Source: Candidatus Sphingomonas phytovorans
Lineage (GTDB): Bacteria; Pseudomonadota; Alphaproteobacteria; Sphingomonadales; Sphingomonadaceae
Direction: 5' to 3'
Assembly: GCA_029202385.1 (NCBI GenBank)
Contig: CP119314.1
Span: forward strand, 3,846,501 to 3,910,500
DNA length: 64,000 nucleotides
Part shown: positions 57,039 through 62,844 of the stretch, piece by piece
Layout of the letters: each line of letters starts with the position of its first letter
How positions within the stretch are numbered: the stretch's first letter is position 1
Program-made: the position numbers and the translations under genes
The notes under the pieces: generated by a model
The model's input: only the letters and a program-made list of their open reading frames with translations
Databases searched by the model: none
What the model was told of the DNA's origin: nothing

Positions 57039-60000
57039 ATGCAGCGTCATTCCTTGGTCCGCTCGGCTGGACGTAGCCGCGCGCTCGCGACAAGCATTCT
57101 GGTGCGTGCGGCCATCTGCGCGTGCGTAAACGGCGTGGGCGCAACGGGTGCGCAGGCACAGACGGCGCTGCCCGCGGGCGGGGTCGTGGCGTCGGGCACC
57201 GCGACGATCGCGACCGCCCCCGACAGCGTCACGATAACGCAAACGACGGCGCGCGCGATCGTCAACTGGAACAGTTTCAACGTCGCGTCAGGCAACAGCG
57301 TGGTGTTCCACCAGCCCGATGCGGGCAGCGCGACCCTGAACCGAGTGACAGGTACGATGGGATCGGAAATCTCCGGGCAGGTTCGCGCCAACGGTTCGGT
57401 CTATCTCGTCAATCCTAACGGCATCGCAATCACCTCGACCGGCAACGTCAGTACCGGTGGTGGCTTCGTCGCCTCGACGCTGGCGATCAGCGATGCCGAC
57501 TTCGAGGCCGGGCGCCTGAACTTCACTGGATCCGGCGCATCGGCCCGCGTGGCGAACGGCGGAACGATCGATGCGGGGCAGGGAAGCTATGTCGCGCTGC
57601 TTGGCGGATCGGTCGGCAATAGCGGAACGATCAGCGTGGCCTATGGCCGTGTCGGCCTTGCCTCCGGCGAAAGCATCACGCTCGATCTCAACGGCGACGG
57701 CTTCATGCAGGTCGCGGTGCCGACCACCGCCGTCGGCAGCACCGCCTTGATCGACATGGCGGGCACGATCAACGCCAGCGGCGGCATTGTCGAGCTCAGG
57801 GCGGCGACGGTGCGCGATGCGGTTCGCAACGTGATCAACCTGACCGGGGACATCAATGCCGATAGCGCGATCGGCAACGGGGGCACGATCATCCTGCATG
57901 GCGGCGACGGTGGATCAGTCAATTTCGCCGGCACACTTTCGGCGCGCGCCACCGGGACGACGGGTGATGGCGGCTTCATCGAGACGTCGGGCGCGAACAT
58001 TTTCTTCACCGGCCTGCGCGTCGATACCTCGGCGGCCGGCGGCATGACCGGCACCTGGCTGATCGACCCGGTCGACCTGACCGTCGATGCGGGCGCCGCC
58101 GCGACGATCAGCGCCAATCTCGCCAGCAACAACGTCACGCTCGAAACCACTGGCAGCAGCGCGGCCGGCGCGGGCAATCAGACACCCGGCGCGGGCGACA
58201 TCACGATCGACAGCGCCGTCACCTGGACCAGCACCAACAGCTTCACGCTACGCGCCTATAACAATATCAACATCAACGCCGCGATCACCGGCACCAATGG
58301 CGGGCTGGCGCTCAGTGCCGGCAACGCCTCTCCCCGCATGGGCCTGATCAACGCGACCGGCGCGGTCGATGTCGGGCTGTTCAATCTCCTCAATGGCGGC
58401 TGGTCGCAGAACAGCGCGGCGCTGCCATTCTTCCACGCGACCGATTTCCGCTTCAGCTTCGCCAATGCCAGTTTCCGGCGCGTGACCGGCGGTGATGGCA
58501 CCACGAACACGCCATTCACCATCGAGGACGTCTATGGCCTGCAGGGGATCGCCTCGGCGAACCAGCTCGCGCGCCAGTTCGTGCTGACCGCCGACATCGA
58601 CGCCAGCGGCACGGCGCTGTGGAACAATGGCGCCGGTTTCGATCCCATTGCGCTTTCCGCACCGGTCTATTTTACCGGCGCCTTTGACGGCAGGTCCCAC
58701 GTCATCTCGGGCCTGACGATCAACCGCCCGACGAGCGATTATGTCGGTCTGTTCAGCGGCATCGACAGTTCGGCCACGATCAGCAATCTTACCCTGACCG
58801 GCCTGAATATCGCCGGTCGGAGCCTGACTGCCGGCCTGACGGGCTATATGGGGTCGACCAACAACCGGATCACCAACGTGCACGTCGCCGGCACCGTTGC
58901 CGGCGTGGGCAGCACCGCCGGCAATATCGGTGGCCTCGTGGGCCAGCAGCTCCGCGGTACAACCAGCAATTCGTCCTCCGCCGTTAATGTATCCGGCGTC
59001 GCGCGGGTCGGCAGCCTGATCGGAACGGTCACCGGCACGGTGACAAATTCCTGGGCCAGCGGCACTGCCAGGGCGACCGGATCGGGTGGCGGCGCCTTTG
59101 TCGGCGGCCTGATCGGCGAATTGACGGGTGGTACCGTCAGCAATTCCTACGCCACCGGCACGGCGACACTCGCCAGCACTGGTAACAACGGCAGCGCGGG
59201 CGGACTGGTCGGGAACGTCGCGTCGAACAGCCTTGTCAATAATTCCTACGCCACCGGCCGTGTGTCGAGCAATTCGATCAACGGCAATGTCGGTGCTGGC
59301 GGGCTGGTCGGCACGCTCAACGCGAGCCGCATCCAGAACGCCTATGCGACTGGCGCCGTCGCCGGAGGCCAGAATGTCGGCGGTCTGGTCGGTAACGTGA
59401 TCGGCGCGTCCAGTTCGATCAACGGCGCCTATGCCGCTGGCGAAGTATCGACATCGATGGTGGGCTACCAGGTCGGCGGCGTGGTCGCCCGGCTGGTCGC
59501 CGGCTCGGTCGCCAATGCCTACTGGGACAACTATTCGACGCGGCAAAACAACGCCTTCACCACAGCCACCGGCACCGCGAGCAACGTGTCCGCGATCACT
59601 TCAGATCCGAACCAGTCGGGCGCGGCGAACTATGCCTACAAGGCAGGCGCCTATGCCAATCTTGCGGCGGCGGCCGGTATCGGCACCGCGACCCCGACCG
59701 GCTTCGTGTTCCTGGCGGGCAATTCGACGCGGCCGTTCCTTGCCTTCGAAGTGCCGACCAGCTTCACCACGACAACGGATGCCGGCGGGCGTCTGCTGAT
59801 CTCCAACAGCCACCAGTTGCAGTTGATCGGCTATGATCAGGCGCGCCTGTCGGGCAGCTACAGCCTGGCCGGCACTATCGACCTGGCTGAAACCGGTGCG
59901 GTCGTCGCGGGGACCCCGGGCTCCTATTCGGGCATGTGGTCCAGCGCCGGCTTCGTGCCGATCGGTACCGATGGCCTCGGCAATGTCTGGAACGGCACCG

Positions 60001-60809
60001 GCCATGCCCTGCTCGCGAGCATCGCCAGCGGCACCTACGGCTTCACCGGTACGCTCGACGGCAACGGCTTCACGTTGTCCAACCTGCGCATCAACCGTTC
60101 CTCGATCAAGAATGTCGGGCTGTTCGGCCTGTCTTCGGGCACGCTGAGCAATCTCAATGTGAGCGGCAGCGTCAGCGGCCTGAACGGCGTCGGCGGGCTG
60201 GTCGGGATGCTCTATAATGGCGGCAGCGTCAGCGGGAGCAATAGCGCGGTCAACGTCACTGGCAACAATCTGGTCGGCGGCCTGGTCGGCAACCAGAATG
60301 ACGGATCGAGCATCACCCGAAGCAGCGCCAGCGGCACGGTCAGCGGCGTCAACAATGTCGGCGGACTGGTCGGCTATGCTTCGGGCGCGACGATCACGCG
60401 GTCGTTCGCGACCGGCACCGTGGCGGGCACCAACTATGTCGGCGGGCTGATCGGCTATCAGTATAATTCGACCACTGCCAACAGCTATACCACCGGTCAG
60501 GTCGGTGCATCGACCAATACCGCGGGCGGGCTGATCGGCTATCTCTATGGCGGCAGCCTGACCAATAGCTATTCGACCGGGCTGGTGATCGGCCCGCGAG
60601 GCGCAGGTGGACTGATCGGGCAGGGGACGAACGGCGCAACCGTCACGAGTTCCTACTGGAGTATCCTGACCAGCGGGCAGGCGACCAGTGCCGGAGGCAC
60701 CGGCCTGACCACGACGCAGATGCAGTCCCCCCTCAGCTATGCCGGGTGGGACTTTGTCACGATCTGGAATGCTCCCGTCGCTAGCGCCCCTCCGGCACTC
60801 CGCCCCTGA
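57039..60809 (+). CDS. Two-partner secretion exoprotein (TpsA), hemagglutinin-type with GLUG repeats
   Basis: This 1,256-residue exported protein has an extended signal peptide with a long charged N-region (cleavage near AQA-QTA, residue 41). A TPS secretion domain (about 45-260) includes NWNSFNVASGNSVVFHQPD and VNPNGIAI, the NPNG motif recognised by the TpsB partner. After a spacer, two blocks of GLUG repeats (about 600-830 and 1020-1220) give roughly twelve GG(L/V/I)(V/I)G units separated by NSYATG-like linkers, forming a beta-helix. The role is likely adhesion, biofilm or contact inhibition. No toxin domain or immunity gene is visible at the end. Confidence 0.92.
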   Translation: MQRHSLVRSAGRSRALATSILVRAAICACVNGVGATGAQAQTALPAGGVVASGTATIATAPDSVTITQTTARAIVNWNSFNVASGNSVVFHQPDAGSATLNRVTGTMGSEISGQVRANGSVYLVNPNGIAITSTGNVSTGGGFVASTLAISDADFEAGRLNFTGSGASARVANGGTIDAGQGSYVALLGGSVGNSGTISVAYGRVGLASGESITLDLNGDGFMQVAVPTTAVGSTALIDMAGTINASGGIVELRAATVRDAVRNVINLTGDINADSAIGNGGTIILHGGDGGSVNFAGTLSARATGTTGDGGFIETSGANIFFTGLRVDTSAAGGMTGTWLIDPVDLTVDAGAAATISANLASNNVTLETTGSSAAGAGNQTPGAGDITIDSAVTWTSTNSFTLRAYNNININAAITGTNGGLALSAGNASPRMGLINATGAVDVGLFNLLNGGWSQNSAALPFFHATDFRFSFANASFRRVTGGDGTTNTPFTIEDVYGLQGIASANQLARQFVLTADIDASGTALWNNGAGFDPIALSAPVYFTGAFDGRSHVISGLTINRPTSDYVGLFSGIDSSATISNLTLTGLNIAGRSLTAGLTGYMGSTNNRITNVHVAGTVAGVGSTAGNIGGLVGQQLRGTTSNSSSAVNVSGVARVGSLIGTVTGTVTNSWASGTARATGSGGGAFVGGLIGELTGGTVSNSYATGTATLASTGNNGSAGGLVGNVASNSLVNNSYATGRVSSNSINGNVGAGGLVGTLNASRIQNAYATGAVAGGQNVGGLVGNVIGASSSINGAYAAGEVSTSMVGYQVGGVVARLVAGSVANAYWDNYSTRQNNAFTTATGTASNVSAITSDPNQSGAANYAYKAGAYANLAAAAGIGTATPTGFVFLAGNSTRPFLAFEVPTSFTTTTDAGGRLLISNSHQLQLIGYDQARLSGSYSLAGTIDLAETGAVVAGTPGSYSGMWSSAGFVPIGTDGLGNVWNGTGHALLASIASGTYGFTGTLDGNGFTLSNLRINRSSIKNVGLFGLSSGTLSNLNVSGSVSGLNGVGGLVGMLYNGGSVSGSNSAVNVTGNNLVGGLVGNQNDGSSITRSSASGTVSGVNNVGGLVGYASGATITRSFATGTVAGTNYVGGLIGYQYNSTTANSYTTGQVGASTNTAGGLIGYLYGGSLTNSYSTGLVIGPRGAGGLIGQGTNGATVTSSYWSILTSGQATSAGGTGLTTTQMQSPLSYAGWDFVTIWNAPVASAPPALRP

Positions 60810-60836
60810 CCCCCCTCCTTTCGCGAGACCGAAACG

Positions 60837-61001
60837 ATGACCGTCCACGACAATCACCACATCCCCGACGCAGCACCGGCGCCCAGGCGGCCCTGGACGA
60901 CGCCCAGGCTCGAAACGCTCGGCAGCATGAACGACACCATGCTGGATGCCACCCAGCCACCCAATGACGGATCGGCATCGCCCAGCCTCCACGCTTCCTG
61001 A
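60837..61001 (+). CDS. 54-residue peptide with a lasso-precursor-like leader, between tpsA and tpsB
   Basis: ATG 60837 opens a 54-codon frame ending at TGA 60999. The peptide contains RRPWTTPRLETLGSMNDT and ends MLDATQPPNDGSASPSLHAS. Residues 20-29 (WTTPRLETLG) match the leader consensus of lasso-peptide precursors, YxxPxLxxxG, with Trp for Tyr. A Thr follows the Gly by five places, one fewer than usual. The tail has an Asp nine residues after Leu36, which would allow a ring, but it does not begin with Gly. The ORF lies 27 bases after tpsA and is co-directional with tpsA and tpsB. Only a weak GAGA ribosome-binding site is seen, and no lasso enzymes are present in the window. Confidence 0.55.
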   Translation: MTVHDNHHIPDAAPAPRRPWTTPRLETLGSMNDTMLDATQPPNDGSASPSLHAS

Positions 61002-61143
61002 ACCATACGCCACCCTTCGTGAATGAAGACGATCGCGATCGATACCGTGGCGGGAAGCGTGTTTCAGCGCTTGGGACAACGGCTTGATCCGTCGTCGCGG
61101 GCATAGGAGCGCCGGTGGCGGAGGGGGAGGGGGAGTTTCGCTA

Positions 61144-62844
61144 GTGCGGCGCACGCGTCTCATCCTGTCGGCCGCGGGTATCGCAGGCTTTGTCACCGCA
61201 TGTCCGGCACTGTCGCAATCGACCGCGCCGAGTTCGATCACCCCACCGACCCTGAAGCCGCCACCGCCTGTCAACGACAATGCGACCATCATCCAACAGA
61301 CCGAAGGGCTGACCGCCCCGAAGGGTGCCGAAGGCCTGACCGTGCTGATTGAAGGTATCGATGCCGAGGGCAGCTTTGCCGATGTAGCGCGGGAAACGGA
61401 GGCGATCGTCGCTCAGGTCGTCGGCCGTCAAGTAACGCTGGCTCGACTCTATGCCGTGGCGTCGGCCATTGAGGCGGCACATGCCCGGGCTGGCTATGTG
61501 CTGGCGCGCGTCGCAGTGCCGCCCCAGCAGATCACCAATGGCGGGCGCTTCCGTATCCTCGTGATCGACGGTTTCATCGAGAGTATCGATGTCTCCGCCG
61601 TGCCCGAGCGGGTCCGCCATAGCGTCGCGGCGCGGGCGGCGGCGCTGACCGGGCGACGCCACCTGAAGATCGGCGAGATCGAGCGCCCCCTGCTGCTGGC
61701 AGGCGAGACACCCGGCCTGACACTGACATCGACGCTGACGCGCGGCCTGGAACAGGGCGGCACCCGATTGCTGCTAAGCGGACGGCAAAGGATCACTTCG
61801 GGCAGCCTGTCAGTGGAGAACGGGTTTGCGCCTGCGTTGGGCCGGTTTGGCGTGACGGCCCAGGCGTCCCTCAATTCGGTCTTCGGGCTTGGCGAGCAGA
61901 TCTACGGCTTCGCGGTTGGCGGATACGACCTGCCCGGGAATTTCTATGGGGACGCCCCGGTTCGCGTGCTGGGCGGTGGCATCAATCTCGCGCCCGGCGA
62001 AGCGCGTTTCTCGATCAATCCGGAAGTCACCTTTTCGCGCACCCAGCCGCGGACCCGGCCGGGCGTGCCGACAACGCGGGGCAATCTGCGTCGCCTGTCG
62101 CTGCGCGGCGGCTTCGTGGTCGAGAAGTCGCGCCGGCAAAATCTTTCACTGAGCGGCGCGATCGAACAGATTCGGGAATCGAATGACGCGATCGAGTTCG
62201 GCGCTCGCCTAAGTCTCGATCGCTTCATGGTCGGCCGGCTGGGCGCGACCTATTCAGCGGCCCTGTCCGGTGGCGGGAGGGTGGCGGCGTCGGTGCAGGT
62301 CAGCCAAGGGCTCGGGGGACTCGATAGCGATGCCTTGCCGGCCGGCGTGCTTCCCTCGCGACAGGGCGCGGCGACCGATTTCACCAAAGCGACACTGGCA
62401 TACCGCCTCGCCATGCCCATCGGTGCCGGATTCGAATTCAGCCTTGCGGCCACGGGGCAGACATCGTTCGGCCGGCCGCTGTTCCGATCGGAACAGACGG
62501 CGCTTGAGGGAAACGATGGGCTGTCCGCCTATGTCGGCGGCGAAACGGCTGTCGATGCGGGGATCGTCACGCGGGCACAACTTGCGCGGCATTTCGCATT
62601 CGGCCGACGCAAATGGTTGCGACTATCGCCCTTTCTGTTCGGCGCTGCCGGCAAAGGCTGGATCGAGCGAGCGACGGCGGTCGAACGCCCAGACCTTACC
62701 GCAGTCAATCTGGGCGCTGGCCTCCGTGGCGCGATTCCCAAAACCGGACTGGGATTCTCGCTGGAATATGCGCGGGGTGTTTCTGCGGTGAAGCAGTTCA
62801 ATGATGTGGATCGGGTCGCGATATCCGCTTCGACGGTTTTTTGA
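61144..62844 (+). CDS. Two-partner secretion outer-membrane transporter (TpsB, FhaC/ShlB-like)
   Basis: This 566-residue protein has a signal peptide (cleavage near LSQ-STA), a POTRA domain (about 75-160, ARAGYVLARVAVPPQQITNGGRFRILVIDGFIESI), a second POTRA-like stretch, and a 16-strand beta-barrel to the C-terminal Phe that BAM recognises. It exports the TpsA partner to the cell surface. GTG 61144 is preferred because GGGGGAG precedes it; the in-frame ATG at 61084 would add a glycine-rich leader. It belongs to the FhaC family, although the conserved loop motif of the family was not checked residue by residue. Confidence 0.9.
   Translation: MRRTRLILSAAGIAGFVTACPALSQSTAPSSITPPTLKPPPPVNDNATIIQQTEGLTAPKGAEGLTVLIEGIDAEGSFADVARETEAIVAQVVGRQVTLARLYAVASAIEAAHARAGYVLARVAVPPQQITNGGRFRILVIDGFIESIDVSAVPERVRHSVAARAAALTGRRHLKIGEIERPLLLAGETPGLTLTSTLTRGLEQGGTRLLLSGRQRITSGSLSVENGFAPALGRFGVTAQASLNSVFGLGEQIYGFAVGGYDLPGNFYGDAPVRVLGGGINLAPGEARFSINPEVTFSRTQPRTRPGVPTTRGNLRRLSLRGGFVVEKSRRQNLSLSGAIEQIRESNDAIEFGARLSLDRFMVGRLGATYSAALSGGGRVAASVQVSQGLGGLDSDALPAGVLPSRQGAATDFTKATLAYRLAMPIGAGFEFSLAATGQTSFGRPLFRSEQTALEGNDGLSAYVGGETAVDAGIVTRAQLARHFAFGRRKWLRLSPFLFGAAGKGWIERATAVERPDLTAVNLGAGLRGAIPKTGLGFSLEYARGVSAVKQFNDVDRVAISASTVF

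Follow-up and report, generated by a model that had tools for sequence, protein, structure and literature searches.

An open reading frame of 54 codons, situated between the two genes of a two-partner secretion (TPS) operon in Candidatus Sphingomonas phytovorans, probably encodes (we put the probability at roughly 0.7) a functional, paeninodin-like precursor of the lasso type, the product of which would be phosphorylated, perhaps sulfated, matured in trans, and active together with the exoprotein TpsA. The gene lies in the 64,000-nucleotide stretch of contig CP119314.1 analyzed here (the window), and candidate enzymes are encoded at a second tps locus of the same genome. The structure of the product, the removal of its leader, its export and its function are all predicted. 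In the scheme that we propose, PqqD from the second tps locus would bind the leader of the window peptide in trans, the HprK-like kinase would phosphorylate the C-terminal Ser54, a B2 peptidase from another cluster would remove the leader, AsnB would close a nine-residue ring from residue 36 to Asp44, and the sulfotransferase may add sulfate. According to the accessible part of PMC9266682, SyanK, an HprK-like kinase of Sphingobium, phosphorylates the C-terminal Ser of its own precursor. The product would work with the C-terminal repeat region of TpsA at the cell surface; this joint action is suggested because tpsA and the peptide gene are neighbours in three TpsB lineages and have been copied together as a cassette.

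The window TPS pair lies on the forward strand, as do all features described below for this locus. tpsA (57039..60809) encodes an exoprotein of 1256 amino acids with an N-terminal TPS secretion domain (residues 44–290) and GLUG repeats towards the C-terminus, and tpsB (61144..62844) encodes an outer-membrane transporter with POTRA and ShlB/FhaC domains; the frame of tpsB begins with a GTG at 61144 and is open from a TTG at 61084. Pfam matches identify both as partners of two-partner secretion (PF05860, 2.1e-24; POTRA_2, 3.7e-11; ShlB, 6e-9). Between the tpsA stop at 60809 and the tpsB GTG at 61144 is a gap of 334 bases, and the ORF at 60837..61001 within it is translated as MTVHDNHHIPDAAPAPRRPWTTPRLETLGSMNDTMLDATQPPNDGSASPSLHAS, with WTTPRLETLG at residues 20–29 and Thr at residue 34, exactly as the first-pass annotation had described. 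The predicted leader comprises residues 1–35 (60837..60941) and ends in T34-M35, a cleavage point placed by means of the lasso Thr(-2) rule given in the accessible text of PMC10368454. Within the leader, WTTPRL (60894..60911) represents the WxxPxL motif, which is expected to bind the RRE protein (PqqD, or B1) from the role described in the available portions of PMC13381572 and PMC10368454; the lasso leader motif claimed at first pass is present, but as the WxxPxL variant and not as YxxP. The predicted core, LDATQPPNDGSASPSLHAS, would occupy 60942..60998, and includes Asp44 as core residue 9 (60966-60968) and the C-terminal Ser54 (60996-60998).

The start, frame and stop of the peptide ORF are kept in the orthologue of a conspecific genome (G491) and in the paralogues. 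Six pairwise comparisons among four copies gave dN/dS values of 0.10–0.23, and equally few amino-acid changes arose in 0.02% to 3.2% of trials in which the same number of changes was placed at random. Loss of the frame in related loci, or a ratio near one, had been named beforehand as evidence against a gene, and neither was found. Thus, the ORF is more than a chance frame, and these data show that it is a real gene under purifying selection. A scan of 60700-61200 for a promoter or terminator found none, a kind of scan that cannot decide co-transcription, and a search of plasmid records with the peptide gave no match at E 0.1.

A paralogue of the peptide, 87% identical, was found at C1:1187527 behind a second tpsA, 2.7 Mb from the window locus. 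There, a tpsB-tpsA-peptide unit is divergent from genes for a LuxR-type response regulator, a histidine kinase, an HprK-like kinase, a sulfotransferase (PF00685), PqqD (PF05402) and AsnB. Outside the window, genes were called mechanically, as ORFs picked by codon composition, and homologues in the neighbourhoods were called by phmmer or with profiles built in this analysis. Genome searches listed two Transglut_core3, twelve Asn_synthase and seven PqqD places, all of them outside the window, in agreement with the earlier statement that the window has no B1, B2 or C gene. Since PqqD and AsnB are encoded at the second locus, B1 and C do exist outside the window. The expectation that any maturation enzymes would lie elsewhere in the genome thus holds for B1 and C at the second tps locus, whereas B2 genes occur at other loci only, and the maturation enzymes of the window peptide seem to be shared between the two tps loci.

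The best NCBIfam match of AsnB is the lasso cyclase model NF033535 (E 6.9e-33), at 114 bits against a cut-off of 525; the protein scores 56 bits in Pfam, and a hydroxyamidotransferase is its only relative among solved structures at E 1e-5. Cys2 is a feature of glutamine-hydrolysing asparagine synthases; the start of AsnB is without Cys2, and its SGGLDS loop is kept. When six PqqD proteins encoded in this genome were combined into a profile, its best relatives among solved structures were lasso B1 proteins (9x90, TbiB1). The HprK-like kinase carries LHASAV...GKST...SDD, that is, the H...GKS...DD pattern, and scores 32 bits against the 200-bit cut-off of HprK_rel_A; at E 0.01 it has no match in Pfam. 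Among the neighbours of the TPS-linked enzymes, no exporter gene was noticed. This genome has at least seven loci for cyclase-like AsnB proteins (G000:C1 310k, 1174k, 1442k, 2408k, 3775k, 4598k and 4987k), six of which also have PqqD, with small WxxP ORFs at several; the seventh PqqD is at 492k.

Ten members of the peptide family were aligned, one of them lacking its N-terminus at a contig end: eight follow a tpsA, one lies in the enzyme cluster of G491, and one in a cluster of a further genome, G628. Trp20, Pro23, the Asp at core position 9 and the C-terminal Ser are invariant (10/10). All ten agree with the leader motif [Y/W]xxPx[L/V/I/F/A], as worded in the accessible part of PMC13381572, the sixth position being L, I or V. 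Residue -2 is Thr in eight members and Val in two, within the range known for lasso precursors (Thr, or Ile/Val), and a penultimate Ile or Val was already known in Sphingomonadales from what is available of PMC10368454. An acidic ring acceptor (Asp or Glu at core 7–9) is likewise present throughout as Asp at core 9, counted from the -2 residue. PqqD and AsnB genes, corresponding to B1 and C, adjoin the paralogue in this genome and family members in G491, G596 and G628, and an asnB gene adjoins the peptide in G516. The invariant Ser is accompanied by a gene for an HprK-like kinase, the activity of which is predicted.

Against the NCBIfam paeninodin model NF033524, the window peptide reached 11.6 bits, so that the lasso-model scan proposed earlier did give a match, but one below the cut-off of 27. 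Seven other peptides, two of them without their first residues, were scanned against lasso models: one (L036) matched weakly at 15.4 bits (cut-off 33), and six did not match. Outside this genome, a profile of the ten peptides found 22 matches at E 0.02 in 397 genomes of the family; 17 of these lie within 1.5 kb of homologues of AsnB, PqqD, B2 or HprK, and five do not, which links the peptides of the TPS loci with the family's lasso precursors. The single peptide as query matched ten of the 397 genomes at E 0.01, including its own. Six of the nine other matches contain internal stop codons; two (L036 and L037) adjoin lasso genes, and the match in L030, a 33-residue frame with unrelated neighbours, was dropped. 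As far as sequence can tell, the first-pass reading of the ORF as a RiPP precursor, of the lasso type, is borne out by this conserved family and by the paralogue beside PqqD, AsnB, HprK-like and sulfotransferase genes.

Other precursor types were seen in these searches. Eleven loci (L097, L100, L106, L109, L112, L120, L123-L126 and L128) encode precursors with WxxPxLxxxGxxxDVAG and Gln at core 8; five of these (L097, L100, L106, L109 and L112) have no Asp or Glu at core 7–9, where a ring acceptor would be expected, yet AsnB adjoins them, in most cases with PqqD as well. At L072, L073 and L074, a WxxP peptide is encoded directly upstream of close AsnB relatives, and PqqD, kinase and B2 genes were not found within 20 kb.

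The most serious alternative, although we judge it a good deal less likely than the lasso reading, is an RRE-dependent RiPP that is not a lasso peptide, with the leader kept and the peptide phosphorylated, sulfated or otherwise modified, and unthreaded, as in RRE/HprK/NTase families without lasso enzymes. Among the ten members, core residue 1 is never Gly: this species has Leu or Gln there, Ser and Ala also occur, and G628 has Pro, which would be a poor ring nucleophile. Furthermore, no B2 gene adjoins the enzyme clusters in the four TPS-linked genomes, whose B2 domains sit elsewhere. Bacillota also have RiPPs with RRE, HprK-like and NTase proteins, and only about one-third of their SpI peptidase genes were linked to lasso enzymes, according to the accessible part of PMC13381572. 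However, a non-lasso product does not sit well with the retention of a cyclase-like AsnB in all four TPS-linked genomes, with the invariant Asp at core 9, or with Thr or Val at -2 in every member, and each of the five genomes checked has B2 genes at other loci: PF13471 was located at two places in this genome, both away from the TPS-linked cluster, and at two to five in every one of four relatives, one of those in G628 being inside the peptide's own cluster. We therefore retain the lasso-type precursor as the better explanation.

DNA alignment of the two tps loci of this genome (59472..61014 against L014:161-1705) revealed a shared cassette that consists of the 3' part of tpsA, from codon 812, plus the peptide ORF, with 88.5% identity over 1,549 alignment positions. 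At the protein level, identity is high from about TpsA residue 841, and the cassette ends sharply 13 nt past the peptide stop. Outside it, stretches of the TpsA proteins are only 38–57% alike, and the two TpsB proteins 38%. The homology extends over the 3' end of tpsA and the peptide and no further, so that the peptide belongs with tpsA and not with tpsB; it also follows tpsA in G596 and in Sphingomonas sp. ERG5 (G516). This amends the first-pass annotation, which had described the peptide gene as embedded between tpsA and tpsB. Judging from the alignment, the peptide was copied together with the TpsA C-terminal repeats, as one cassette and without tpsB, at least once. Since G491 shares the cassette, a single copying event older than the split from G491 is indicated.

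The direction of this event is suggested by ERG5. The TpsA encoded on a 4-kb contig of that strain is about 90% like the window TpsA over residues 721–840, where our second TpsA reaches 38–52%, and is therefore of the window type. Over residues 901–1256, this window-type TpsA is 58–73% like ours, whereas the TpsA of the ERG5 enzyme locus is 75–92% like ours. Our C-terminal part is thus closer to that of the ERG5 enzyme locus, which is what copying of the block in our lineage, out of the enzyme locus and into the window locus, would produce.

The cassette allows a bolder proposal, which we offer only tentatively and think improbable, of a contact- or surface-based system: the TPS adhesin may carry or display a lasso-type peptide, with the TpsA C-terminal module and the peptide forming an exchangeable cargo cassette, perhaps joined by AsnB. 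Such a layout would be comparable to CdiA-CT/CdiI, except that the partner would be a modified peptide of ribosomal origin. The older suggestion that the TPS machinery has taken over the leader as a handle gained no support of its own. Another reading is that the TPS system is CDI-like and the peptide its small immunity or accessory protein, with the TpsA C-terminus and the small gene as an exchangeable toxin–immunity cassette; the position right after tpsA and the co-copying of the two between TPS loci do resemble CdiA-CT/CdiI. We rate this as very unlikely, because Pfam detected no toxin domain in TpsA (only the TPS and GLUG domains and a weak M26_N match), and the partner is a 54-residue peptide that has the RRE leader motif, ends in Ser and is adjoined by RiPP enzymes in relatives.

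A search for the peptide at other sphingomonad TPS loci, as first proposed from the window, brought the tpsA-peptide neighbours to eight in four genomes, those of this genome and one that is split being counted. In G596, a different species, all genes of the order tpsA-peptide-tpsB-tpsA-peptide-hprK-pqqD-asnB lie on the same strand; each peptide frame shares bases with the end of the tpsA before it, and the second with the start of hprK as well. The 4-kb contig of ERG5 carries a tpsA end, the peptide, and asnB on the opposite strand. The other tpsA of ERG5 is on a contig with genes for PqqD, sulfotransferase, HprK, histidine kinase and response regulator; after this tpsA comes a peptide gene of which the contig end leaves only the start, and a truncated member of the peptide family is at the end of another contig. 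G491 has both peptide copies and a third relative (L152:11641-11796), which lies on the opposite strand between hprK and the histidine kinase gene; in our genome these two genes are 12 bases apart. In G628, the family member is beside PqqD, B2, AsnB and HprK-like genes, and TPS genes were not found. A sulfotransferase is present in three, and a cyclase-like AsnB in all four, of the TPS-linked genomes. A chance or decaying ORF carried along by duplication is hardly credible: the frame is short and without a curated-family match above cut-off, but its start, stop, motif and C-terminal Ser are kept, its dN/dS is low, it overlaps hprK and tpsA in G596, and it recurs beside tpsA eight times, in four genomes and three TpsB lineages.

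TpsB relatives occur in 28 of 295 genomes of the genus, at 32 places, and the neighbourhoods were read at 21. These neighbourhoods, together with a profile of five peptides, placed the peptide beside TPS genes in only four of the 295 genomes (G000, the present one, G491, G516 and G596). Searched in all 295 genomes, the profile matched 25 places at E 0.05; nine belong to these four genomes, and no further TPS locus was found among the places read. The 16 other places have E-values of 0.0049 and up; five were examined, yielding one real precursor (that of G628), while the other four were rejected as matches inside frames unlike precursors. A cyclase search gave 73 places at E 1e-40; 60 of the 71 outside this genome were fetched, six of them incomplete because of contig ends or stretch length. 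With seven loci of this genome, this makes 67 cyclase loci, of which 36 have B2 and only one, our own, has a TPS pair. The same search in plasmid records gave no match at E 1e-40. The arrangement is thus rare, with the peptide beside TPS genes in four genomes and a TPS pair at one of 67 cyclase loci.

In a TpsB tree, peptide-bearing loci appear in three separate places, and no peptide was found at the relatives between them. In contrast, the TPS-linked cyclases form one clade (SH-aLRT 100, in a quick tree without bootstrap), next to which falls a cluster with B1, B2, C, kinase and NTase. Most simply, a TPS system would have been joined by a complete lasso cluster, from which B2 and NTase were lost, and the peptide would have spread among TPS loci.

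Sulfotransferase-type lasso clusters have further neighbours. Phage-tail-collar (PF07484) genes are near six of the 14 cyclase loci with a sulfotransferase (at least 200 bits), namely L016, L018, L085, L087, L090 and L099, and near none of the 53 loci without one. Directly after two collar genes, L090 has one WxxP peptide and L099 three, a layout like that of tpsA and its peptide. Beside the sulfotransferase-type cluster of L090 is a gene (L090:3125-6439) for a large membrane protein with permease, FG-GAP and ASPIC/UnbV domains (Pfam); proteins that resemble it by eye are encoded beside such clusters at L092:5207-8503 and L129:5425-6438, and the three may be an exporter or a partner.

The usual view of lasso peptides is that compact A-B-C clusters make them as free products. 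In the present case, a precursor of the lasso type is inherited next to the part of a secreted adhesin gene that encodes the C-terminus, and was copied along with it. Should the product act on the adhesin or together with it, lasso-type peptides would gain a surface role, and the purpose of phosphorylated, sulfotransferase-linked lasso clusters could be tested by single-gene deletions. Our literature search, which left most subscription papers outside, found, among the papers listed, no report joining lasso peptides with two-partner secretion or filamentous hemagglutinin, or modified peptides with two-partner secretion; PMC4661593, the one listed paper with both lasso peptides and two-partner secretion, names them as separate systems in its accessible part. 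A sulfotransferase gene in some Bacillota lasso clusters was already known from the available text of PMC8498205. We found no earlier description of a lasso-type precursor paired with an adhesin-gene tail, and we regard the pairing as a variant of lasso-type RiPPs and not as a separate class.

The closest known systems are the phosphorylated lasso peptides of the paeninodin-like and SyanA-SyanK type, from Sphingobium yanoikuyae and Bacillota. They share with ours the WxxPxL leader, Thr(-2), an acidic residue at core 9, the C-terminal Ser, PqqD (B1), AsnB (C) and an HprK-like kinase with H...GKS...DD. However, the present loci lack an adjacent B2, three of the four genomes have a sulfotransferase, the precursor gene lies behind one for a TPS exoprotein, core residue 1 in this species is Leu or Gln, and the enzymes for the window locus are at another locus. 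The Bradymonas lasso peptide BsfA, with a penultimate Ile, is similar in its non-Thr residue at this position (Val in G596) and in its kinase and RRE, but its kinase target is Ser3 and a B2 protein acts there, as stated in the accessible text of PMC10368454, whereas ours has a TPS context. The LPP family of RiPPs likewise combines RRE and an HprK-like kinase with a Y/WxxP leader, but belongs to Bacillota and uses an SpI peptidase and NTase, with no TPS genes described in the available part of PMC13381572. TPS/CDI loci, finally, have tpsB, tpsA and a small gene right after tpsA, with the TpsA C-terminus and the small gene copied together, as in our cassette; in contrast, TpsA here has no toxin domain in Pfam, and the small gene is an RRE-type precursor.
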